IMG/VR virus record: IMGVR_UViG_3300045135_000518
Span: 1-23,181 of that record
Reading direction: 5' to 3' (one strand)
DNA: 23,181 nucleotides
Source: a virus
Under the pieces are notes generated by a model, which saw only the letters and a list, made by a program, of their open reading frames with translations, ran no database searches and was not told the DNA's origin. Shown piece by piece: positions 3,163 to 7,567 of this stretch. Within the stretch, counting starts at the first letter, position 1. Every line of letters starts with the position of its first letter. The position numbers and the translations under genes were made by a program.

Positions 3163-3169
3163 AAATAAA

Positions 3170-3258
3170 GTGACCAAGCTACTTGAGTGCTGGATAAAAC
3201 TCTCTCCTAGCTCTACCCGAAAGGGCAAGAGGTTGTTCAAATTATGTCGTGGAGAGAG
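3170..3258 (+). ncRNA. Repeated RNA motif, copy 1
   Basis: The 25-base leader at 3170-3194 (core CCAAGCTACTTGAGTGCTGG) recurs at 3512-3536 and 6090-6114. It is followed after six bases by an 8-bp stem CTCTCTCC/GGAGAGAG that encloses a second hairpin, CTCT-A-CCC-GAAA-GGG-CA-AGAG. The stem sequence differs completely from those of the other two copies yet still pairs. It starts seven bases after the resolvase stop codon. Function unknown. Confidence 0.55.
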
Positions 3259-3262
3259 ATTA

Positions 3263-3411
3263 CAGAAGGAGGCAGAATGGTAGACGAGGGCTCCAACACG
3301 GGGGTCTGTGAGGTTAATATCAGATTAGCTGGAAGAATACTGGAGCAATTCTAGATATGCAAACAGAAGCTATTGATACTCACATTGAAGGTTCGAATCC
3401 TTCCCTTCTGA
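3263..3411 (+). ncRNA. tRNA-like element with perfect acceptor stem and T arm, 149 nt, non-canonical interior
   Basis: CAGAAGG (3263-3269) pairs perfectly with CCTTCTG (3404-3410). A five-pair T stem GAAGG/CCTTC encloses the canonical seven-base T loop TTCGAAT (3392-3398), placed directly before the acceptor 3' strand and an A discriminator, exactly as in tRNA. The 5' side has a D-arm-like stretch, GGCAGAATGGTAGAC (3271-3285), reminiscent of class II tRNAs. The total length is about twice that of a tRNA, the expected D-stem partner is missing, and I could not find a credible anticodon arm. It may be a tRNA interrupted by about 70 bases, a decayed tRNA, or a tRNA mimic inside a larger RNA. No amino-acid identity is proposed. 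Confidence 0.45.
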
Positions 3412-3413
3412 CA

Positions 3414-3496
3414 AATAACGTATATCTTCTAAGTATAGGATAGCTAGGCATTGCGTCACATGCAGATGCGAGATGAAAGGCTCGCTATACGTTATT
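3414..3496 (+). ncRNA. Cloverleaf-like 11-bp inverted repeat
   Basis: AATAACGTATA at 3414-3424 pairs perfectly with TATACGTTATT at 3486-3496. Inside are GCAT/ATGC (3448-3451 with 3460-3463, eight-base loop) and GCGAG/CTCGC (3468-3472 with 3481-3485, eight-base loop). The last hairpin abuts the long stem with no gap, as a T arm does on an acceptor stem. There is no TTC T loop, so it is not a normal tRNA. It starts two bases after the tRNA-like element ends. Confidence 0.5.
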
Positions 3497-3511
3497 CAAT
3501 TTAAATTCAAC

Positions 3512-3606
3512 GAGAGCAAGCCACGTGAACGCTGCAATAAGCTCCGATAAAATCTTAAGTCTATTTTGATTCACCTAATCGGAGCACACATACGAGAGTA
3601 CCATGC
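3512..3606 (+). ncRNA. Repeated RNA motif, copy 2
   Basis: The leader at 3512-3536 (core AGCAAGCCACGTGAACGCTG) differs from copy 3 at three of 25 bases. It is followed by the 8-bp stem GCTCCGAT (3541-3548) / ATCGGAGC (3578-3585). Next comes ATACGAGAGT, which lies at the same distance from the stem as ATACGGAACT in copy 3. In copy 2 this segment sits in a second hairpin, CACACAT / ATGCGTG, with one mismatch. Function unknown. Confidence 0.55.
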
Positions 3607-3630
3607 GTGAGTTGGGCATAAATTGAAAGT

Positions 3631-3714
3631 CCTAGTAACGTAAAATCGCTAGGCAAGAAATCCTAGTCTGGGGAGGCTAGGTGAAGTCAGTGTCGGAGGG
3701 GGTTCGCCCTCTCC
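3631..3714 (+). repeat. Two CCTAG/CTAGG hairpins and a TTCG-capped hairpin ending the structured region
   Basis: CCTAG at 3631-3635 can pair with CTAGG at 3649-3653, and CCTAG at 3662-3666 with CTAGG at 3677-3681; cross-pairing is also possible. CTAG is usually rare in bacterial DNA, so four copies in 50 bases are unlikely by chance. GGAGGGGG (3695-3702), loop TTCG and CCCTCTCC (3707-3714) form an eight-pair stem with one G-U pair and an extra-stable tetraloop. TGAA at 3682-3685 and TTCA at 3715-3718 could extend it. No T-run follows, so it is not a standard terminator. Confidence 0.5.
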
Positions 3715-3760
3715 TTCATAACTAAAACAGGTCAAAGTCGACTACTTTAAAACTAAACTT

Positions 3761-4063
3761 ATGAAAACAGAAAAAAGCAATAAACTGATAGCAGACTTTA
3801 TGGGGTTACAATTCTCTAAAGGAGAATACTACCGACCATTATACAATAGTGGGGATTGGATATCTGTAAACCAATTAAAATACCACACCTCTTGGGATTG
3901 GCTAATGCCTGTTATAAAAGAATGTTTAAAGGGAGAGGCAGAAGTAAATGAAGATGTATCTAACACTATAGTTATAAATATCTATGAGGGATTATGTAGT
4001 CAAGATAAATCTTTAACATACAAGTCAGTAGTAAAATTCATAAAAGAGTATAACGACAATTAA
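3761..4063 (+). CDS. Small phage protein with WDWLMPV motif
   Basis: A 100-residue protein of unknown function. The pattern KLIADFMGLQ near the N terminus, then YHTSWDWLMPVIKECL, then a short strand/helix and a C-terminal VVKFIKEYN is common in small phage proteins of Bacteroidetes and may belong to the phage 'ABA sandwich' type of domain; that is only a resemblance. No enzyme motif, signal peptide or membrane segment is seen. It is the first gene after the structured region, with a leader rich in A and no Shine-Dalgarno sequence. Confidence 0.75.
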   Translation: MKTEKSNKLIADFMGLQFSKGEYYRPLYNSGDWISVNQLKYHTSWDWLMPVIKECLKGEAEVNEDVSNTIVINIYEGLCSQDKSLTYKSVVKFIKEYNDN

Positions 4064-5719: not shown

Positions 5720-6106
5720 ATGCAAGAGCCGTACTATTTCAATGAGGAGGGTCTACAGACACACGTTGTAAACTATCTTAAAAAGTATTATCCAGAAGTA
5801 AGATATTGCGCAAGTTTAGGCGGTATTCGTACGGGCATAAAGCAAGCAAAGAAGAGTAAAAATACGGGATATGTAAAAGGCTTCCCAGATTTACAAATTT
5901 GTGAGGCTAGAGGCGGATATTTTGGCTTATTCATTGAATTGAAATTTAATAAGCAATGCTATGCCAATCAAAGCCAAAAGGATTGGGTAGATGACCTTAA
6001 TAAAAGAGGTTATAAAGCTGAAATTTGCAAAGGATGGGAAGAGGCTATATATGAAATAGATAACTATCTTTTGTTAGATAATACCATAAGTGAGCAAGCT
6101 ACTTGA
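5720..6106 (+). CDS. VRR-NUC domain nuclease
   Basis: A 128-residue stand-alone VRR-NUC nuclease of the restriction-endonuclease (PD-(D/E)XK) fold. The motifs are in order: an N-terminal helix with E9/E10, GFPDLQI (D57), YFGLFIELK (E73, K75) and the glutamine of NQSQKDWVDDL (Q86), ending with the RGYKAEICKGWEEAI strand-helix. Small phage versions are thought to cut branched or structured DNA. It directly follows a ribbon-helix-helix gene. Its last codons and stop (SEQAT-stop) are encoded by the repeated RNA motif copy 3, which may constrain the C terminus. Confidence 0.88.
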   Translation: MQEPYYFNEEGLQTHVVNYLKKYYPEVRYCASLGGIRTGIKQAKKSKNTGYVKGFPDLQICEARGGYFGLFIELKFNKQCYANQSQKDWVDDLNKRGYKAEICKGWEEAIYEIDNYLLLDNTISEQAT

Positions 6107-6184
6107 ACGCTGCACAACGCCCGCACTTGTTATTCATGTTTTTTAAAATCTACCAGCGGGCAATTATACGGAACTTCATACCGA
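6090..6184 (+). ncRNA. Repeated RNA motif, copy 3 (upstream of holin-like gene)
   Basis: The leader at 6090-6114 (core AGCAAGCTACTTGAACGCTG) matches copies 1 and 2 about 2.6-2.9 kb upstream. It is followed by stem GCCCGC (6119-6124) / GCGGGC (6156-6161) and then ATACGGAACTTCATACCG, which can fold as CGG/CCG or TAT/ATA. The element overlaps the VRR-NUC stop and ends just before the ATG at 6189. It could be a cis-acting leader of that gene or a separate small RNA. Confidence 0.5.
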
Positions 6185-7356: not shown

Positions 7357-7567
7357 GTAATTGTGATACAGTTAAGCAATGATAACGGGTAGCTACTGGC
7401 TGCGATACTGCAAAATAAAATCTACCGACTTACTAATATTATTAAAAGAGAAAGATATATAGGGAGGGGGTGTAAAATACCTAAGCCCTATTAACTGTAC
7501 ATCGCCGCGGTGGTCAGAGAAAAACACGCGTGCAAAATTGGAGTTTCTGTATAAGTAAGATAAAAAT
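7357..7567 (+). other. Non-coding gap before terminase; possible cos region
   Basis: Some 211 bases without a credible gene in an otherwise gapless packaging module. It contains a purine tract (GGGAGGGGGTGTAAAA near 7461-7476) and a GC-rich palindrome CGCCGCGGTG at 7503-7512 in AT-rich surroundings. Position between HNH and small terminase genes is where cos or terminase-binding sites of HK97-type phages lie. No cohesive-end sequence or clear promoter can be named. Confidence 0.3.

Follow-up and report, generated by a model that had tools for sequence, protein, structure and literature searches.

The window, meaning the whole stretch of DNA analysed here, is a 23,181-base virus sequence (IMGVR_UViG_3300045135_000518) whose genes include those for a helicase, Sak4-like, NinB/Orf-like, RusA-like and VRR-NUC proteins, the small and large terminase subunits, portal and capsid. 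Between the RusA-like gene and a 100-aa open reading frame lies a gap (Table 1) for which the initial annotation claimed about 600 bases without a gene, and we indeed found no plausible gene there: no open reading frame on its + strand exceeds 37 aa. The accompanying statement that genes overlap everywhere else holds roughly, but a second gap of 211 bases (7357-7567), with a related pseudoknot, precedes the small terminase gene terS. The G+C content of the first gap is 0.43, against 0.32-0.34 in the surrounding sequence, and the folding energy of its + strand is modestly lower than that of shuffles (z -1.93, 2/100), with z -0.57 for the minus strand and z -3.4 to -3.9 for individual hairpins. 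Because the folding energy of the whole gap is modest and no proof by itself, comparative evidence was required. Between positions 2600 and 4400, sigma-70 promoters occurred only at chance level and no + strand terminator was found.

Judging from the comparisons below, the gap encodes a real folded RNA, previously undescribed, that combines repeated small pseudoknots with a tRNA look-alike. From the 5' end, its modules are PK-A1, a hairpin, a tRNA-like domain, a hairpin, PK-A2, a hairpin, PK-A3, two hairpins, the word GTCAGYGT and a terminal hairpin. Inverted repeats reported at the outset were confirmed (11/11 pairs at 3414-3424/3486-3496, 10/11 at 3197-3207/3251-3261 and 8/8 at 3541-3548/3578-3585), as were two tetraloops, GAAA at 3219-3222 and TTCG at 3703-3706, and the reported repeated motif turned out to be a pseudoknot that appears three times in the gap and once more as PK-A4. 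There, PK-A and one hairpin form a minimal version (6088-6161), and the gene for a small putative membrane protein comes next.

Table 1. Features of the window that bear on the predicted RNA
Feature	Position	Strand	Details
RusA-like gene, 5' neighbour of gap	2782-3162
Gene-free gap holding the RNA	3163-3760	+	598 bases
PK-A1	3168-3194	+	stem 1 AAG 3168-3170/CTT 3182-3184
PK-A1, stem 2	3174-3179/3189-3193	+	CC-A-AGC/GCTGG; closing pair C-G, usually G-C; pairs read from sequence
Hairpin CTCTCTCC/GGAGAGAG	3200-3258	+	inner CTCT/AGAG and CCC-GAAA-GGG; z -2.34
tRNA-like domain	3263-3411	+	acceptor 3263-3269/3404-3410; T arm 3387-3403; long structured variable arm
Long hairpin	3414-3496	+	11 exact closing pairs AATAACGTATA/TATACGTTATT; z -1.87
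PK-A2	3510-3536	+	ACG/CGT; GCAAGC/GCTGC
Hairpin GCTCCGAT/ATCGGAGC, between PK-A2 and PK-A3	3541-3585	+	z -3.69
PK-A3	3592-3618	+	ACG/CGT; GTACCA/TGGGC; start of covariance-model match 3591-3744
Hairpin GTCCTAG..CTAGGCA	3629-3654	+
Hairpin CCTAGTCT..AGGCTAGG	3662-3681	+	GGG loop
Conserved 3' word GTCAGTGT	3686-3693	+	family form GTCAGYGT
Terminal hairpin GGAGGGGG-TTCG-CCCTCTCC	3695-3714	+	z -3.88
100-aa ORF, 3' neighbour of gap	3761-4063
PK-A4	6088-6114	+	AAG/CTT; GCAAGC/GCTGC; overlaps end of VRR-NUC ORF 5720-6106
Hairpin GCCCGC/GCGGGC, 3' of PK-A4	6119-6161	+	read from sequence
PK-C	7369-7426	+	stem 1 CAGT 7369-7372/ACTG 7395-7398
PK-C, stem 2	7388-7392/7422-7426	+	GGTAG/CTACC

The hallmark of the family is PK-A, a 27-nt H-type pseudoknot (ACG-AGAG-stem-YR-CGT-GARY-stem'-CA) with the shared core W-ACG-AGA-G[stem]YR-CGT-GARY[stem']CA. 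Stem 1 consists of three pairs between the prefix ACG and a CGT in the hairpin loop (a prefix AAG goes with a loop CTT), and there is possibly a fourth, non-canonical pair, since columns 5 and 15 covary too; stem 2 consists of five pairs with a one-base bulge or, in some copies, six pairs and no bulge. Covariation is evident in both stems over 147 distinct copies: With no structure assumed, the top four column pairs by APC-corrected mutual information (12-24, 11-25, 13-23 and 3-17) are predicted PK-A pairs, and 95% of cells pair, as opposed to 20-46% when the structure is slid. Because these candidates were gathered with conserved-base patterns, and related sequences are not independent, we relied on positions left free in the search and on the presence of several unrelated stem 2 families, the middle pairs of which were seen as A-T, C-G, T-A, G-T and T-G. 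When viral contigs were scanned with the prefix and one loop base left free, the free position of stem 1 paired at 80 of 82 distinct sites (C-G 48, A-T 29, T-A 1, T-G 2; two unpaired), compared with a mean of 43 and a maximum of 59 in shuffled controls. The eight PK-A pairs include 79 G.T or T.G cells but only 7 A.C or C.A cells, which indicates that RNA of the coding strand is what folds, and the pattern read backward had zero matches in 36 records. The structured RNA that had been proposed from the window alone is thus backed by strong covariation in its homologues, a test that the alternative of a decayed gene failed; the proposal of a single ornate RNA of about 600 nt stands as to structure, but what we see is a modular chain rather than one fixed "giant" RNA.

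The recurring unit is PK-A plus hairpins, with smallest complete versions of about 120-150 nt, and the gaps that hold the RNA measure from about 80 to 1100 nt. Its 3' module takes one of two forms: Class A proceeds from PK-A through the GTCCTAG..CTAGGCA hairpin, sometimes a second hairpin, GTCAGYGT and a terminal hairpin to a start codon, and class B from PK-A through a CCTAG hairpin, TTGTTC and a long hairpin with GGTCGTC..GCG in its loop to a U-rich tract, present at the end of 35 of 37 such modules. Two-sided changes are present in the hairpins of the 3' modules as well, and the window's hairpin at 3200-3258 resembles class B modules in its TTGTTC and GTCGT words. A covariance model (R1) of 14 class A members, from which the window had been left out, matched the window at 3591-3744 (72.2 bits, E 1.5e-15) and, in nearly all of the phage records that it matched, hit a single place. 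Where two PK-A lie side by side, the spacing is 33 nt in 21 of 25 close pairs and 32 or 34 nt in the other four, and in the adjacent pairs that we read (e.g., L058, L154, L156 and L166) the first and second copies differ in stem 2 type; the spacing and the differing types together suggest a fixed two-pseudoknot architecture. A GTAAC-AAGTCG-GTTAC hairpin and variants of it (GTAAC or ATAAC with GTTAC or GTTAT) recur 5' of PK-A, for example in L146, L150 and L154, and probably make up one more module of these RNAs.

A second pseudoknot class, PK-C, follows the pattern N2-3-GTTAAAC-N8-10-[NNNAG]YTAC-N22-23-AAC[CTNNN]AGCC. Its stem 1 joins the bases 5' of GTTAAAC to those 3' of YTAC, with the first pair formed in 32 of 33 copies (G-C 9, A-T 15, T-A 8) and the second likewise in 32/33, and its stem 2 joins [NNNAG] to [CTNNN] in 33/33, although pairing was no condition of the search. 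A stricter PK-C pattern matched 54 loci, and in 29 of these a PK-A follows on the same strand at a distance of no more than 700 nt. The window's own copy occupies the 211-base gap before terS, and each of the three largest non-coding gaps examined within the window's early half contains PK-A or PK-C. The pre-terS gap has a further structured stretch at 7440-7567 (z -1.92), within which a packaging site or one more RNA module might lie.

The tRNA-like domain of the window has the acceptor and T arm of a tRNA, with 7/7 acceptor pairs, 5/5 T-stem pairs and, as claimed initially, a T loop (TTCGAAT, 3392-3398), and its long variable arm is likewise intact. Its D arm is degenerate, and its anticodon arm has 7 bp and a 6-nt loop lacking U33, so that by inspection it is not a decoding tRNA; ARAGORN recognised no tRNA in the window, and the Rfam tRNA model scored 18.7 bits (cutoff 29) on part of the domain only. 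T arms joined to a 7-bp acceptor stem were found 18 times in 139 gaps scanned, and in L001, L072, L150, L204, L213, L254, L259 and L275 only a few bases separate the end of the tRNA-like domain from the PK-A that follows, a regular junction suggestive of processing at that boundary. Two loci (L150:7107-7199 and L213:6174-6266) contain tRNA-like genes with a Leu-type D arm, a long and sometimes expanded variable arm and a conserved GTC (Asp) anticodon loop, and such genes occur also in L181, L188, L234, L264, L266, L274 and L292. ARAGORN labels two of the GTC-anticodon genes tRNA-Asp, and the group may represent either tRNA-Asp of an unusual class II form or mimics of tRNA.

At both gathering and permissive thresholds, Rfam models returned nothing but weak tRNA matches for the window and 17 related loci, and a literature search of open-licence papers yielded no published account of the family. 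Neither GOLLD nor ROOL reached the gathering threshold in the window or the 17 related loci, which agrees with the initial impression that the sequence matches no known giant RNA; the STAXI model (RF01728) and the models for group I/II introns, HEARO and OLE had no match, and neither ARAGORN nor the Rfam tmRNA models detected a tmRNA. GOLLD is a giant ornate RNA of phages and prophages, hundreds of nucleotides long, with a conserved 3' and a variable 5' part and with tRNAs at times inside or next to it (PMC12286853). The family described here is likewise phage-encoded, similar in size range, conserved at its 3' and variable at its 5' part, and close to tRNA-like elements (the window's RNA contains a tRNA-like part, as GOLLD loci can), but it is smaller and modular, with repeated H-type pseudoknots and unrelated conserved words, and is known from uncultured phages only. 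ROOL, of about 600 nt, also has a phage setting, multiple pseudoknots and nearby tRNA islands (PMC12286853), features that the window's RNA shares, but the architecture of ROOL is fixed, a single contiguous fold, whereas ours is a variable chain of modules. STAXI is a tandemly repeated pseudoknot near ssb and other DNA-manipulation genes, debated as RNA or ssDNA (PMC2864571); its two to four repeats near such genes have a counterpart in the one to four PK-A per locus, a likeness of architecture, not homology, since stems and loops differ, STAXI is listed for enterobacteria rather than uncultured phages, and our family adds hairpins, tRNA-like domains and a conserved 3' module. As in tmRNA, a tRNA-like acceptor and T arm and several pseudoknots share one RNA, but here the two tRNA-like halves adjoin each other instead of lying at opposite ends, and most family members have no such part. 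The resemblances to GOLLD, ROOL and STAXI are therefore ones of plan, not homology.

From IMG/VR phage contigs we collected 163 distinct loci, and a typical contig has one locus with one to four PK-A. Neither of two PK-A patterns matched anywhere in 84,980 bacterial and archaeal genomes, and BLAST of the gap region and consensus modules against 50,697 deposited phages returned no family member, just unrelated short matches that included T arms of phage tRNA-Ser, exact-pattern and BLAST searches being apt to miss diverged copies. Few PK-A contigs match Terminase_6N, and a TerL resembling that of the window (47% identity) was present in only 2 of 32 PK-A records tested; with terminases so unrelated, the RNA evidently crosses phage lineages. 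The proteins flanking the 163 loci fall into 108 clusters (neighbours include ssb, nuclease, RusA, helicase-like and terS genes), and no conserved downstream target gene was found across these loci. Relatives of rusA gave the first homologous gaps, with partial matches in many phages, but synteny between rusA and the gene at 3761, suggested initially as the route to homologues, proved unreliable: neighbours are diverse, and relatives of either gene often lack the RNA. In L148, L175 and L211, the RNA follows a strong + strand intrinsic terminator (found by scan in L148; reading L175 and L211 showed the same sequence), and its far end meets the 3' end of a convergent gene, with nothing downstream. 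The convergent gene of L148 (L148:7101-12086), whose 3' end abuts that of the RNA, encodes a 1661-aa protein with a HEMGH zinc-protease-like motif, and its C-terminal 499 aa have no PHROGs match. The closest long gene upstream diverges from the RNA in about 20 loci; of four such genes tested, three were clearly terS. Bacteroidota-type promoter words numbered 182, against 134-159 in controls, no clear enrichment. Together, these sequence comparisons establish the family, its fold by covariation, its strand, its modularity and its independence of particular neighbours.

As to function, we favour an autonomous noncoding RNA acting in trans over a cis-acting leader, and put the chance that this is correct at about even. 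It is argued for by the spread of flanking proteins over many clusters, by the three loci that leave no downstream gene to regulate, by the divergent upstream genes and by the wide differences in RNA size, and we also count in its favour the U-rich tracts of class B and the tRNA-like domains abutting PK-A. Against it, minimal versions (one pseudoknot, hairpins and a start codon within tens of bases) resemble mRNA leaders, class B terminators just 5' of genes could be attenuators, and most copies sit in co-directional gene runs without a recognisable promoter; the occurrence of PK-A and PK-C in separate gaps of one phage, the window included, fits cis elements equally. A cis-acting mRNA element, whether as intercistronic punctuation, in stabilising or processing the message, or in read-through control (attenuation or antitermination), is a possibility we take seriously but regard as rather doubtful. 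Most loci are indeed co-directional with their flanks (upstream 123/150, downstream 94/115), PK-A often overlaps the upstream stop codon, class A modules stop shortly 5' of a start codon, class B finishes in terminator-like hairpins, and three PK-A copies begin about 4-10 nt 3' of a TAnnTTTG promoter-like word, like a structure at a 5' end. But no theme unites the neighbouring genes of the 163 loci, L148, L175 and L211 lack a downstream gene, and such an element sits poorly with one locus in most phage records, sizes up to about 1.1 kb and embedded tRNA-like domains.

The remaining explanations are much less probable. A single-stranded DNA structure for replication, packaging or recombination, as discussed for STAXI, would suit both the similar plan and the position among replication, recombination and terminase genes, yet we consider it unlikely, because the excess of G.T over A.C cells is what G.U pairs of RNA would give, GAAA and TTCG loops such as those in the window stabilise RNA, and the strand is always the coding direction of the unit. 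Decay, with the gap as what is left of a tRNA array or a gene and its hairpins as products of chance, would explain the degenerate D arm and aberrant anticodon arm as well as the modest total folding energy, but two strongly covarying pseudoknot classes and the covariance-model match make it very improbable: compensatory changes are not a product of decay, which is refuted for the pseudoknot parts and may apply to no more than the tRNA-like domain. Equally hard to credit is ribosomal mimicry by words borrowed from 16S or 23S rRNA; exact 8-9-mer matches do exist (TACGAGAG of the sarcin-ricin loop and GTGCTGCAT and GTCGTCAGC of 16S helices 34-35, for example), but local alignments to rRNA have scores that shuffled motifs reach as well (p 0.02-0.99 in 16 comparisons, uncorrected).

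Under the favoured trans reading, a noncoding RNA would be transcribed the same way as the early (replication and recombination) genes and would fold as a chain of small H-type pseudoknots, hairpins, an optional tRNA-like domain and a conserved 3' module (hairpins, GTCAGYGT and a terminal hairpin or terminator), to work as a discrete, free-standing transcript. Its repeated pseudoknots may present several copies of one docking surface to a single partner, which could be a protein, the ribosome or more molecules of this RNA; in members that have it, the tRNA-like part may lead tRNA-processing enzymes to cut at the pseudoknot boundary or let the RNA pass as a tRNA. More broadly, and with somewhat less than even confidence, we propose a class of phage noncoding RNAs of about 100 to 1100 nt that would be put together from PK-A, PK-C, hairpins and tRNA mimics much as proteins are from shuffled domains, and that would act in trans on the host (its ribosomes, its tRNA-targeting defences or its RNA decay, for example) or form RNA-only particles. 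To our knowledge, very few large structured phage RNAs have been described, and for none of them has a function been settled. The module on which this family is built is unusually simple and easy to recognise, and its compensatory changes are clear. The family is spread over many unrelated uncultured phages, can be found with one short search pattern, and displays tRNA-like elements set directly against pseudoknots; with minimal members of about 120-150 nt beside others of 600-1100 nt, it offers a tractable route to what ornate phage RNAs do.
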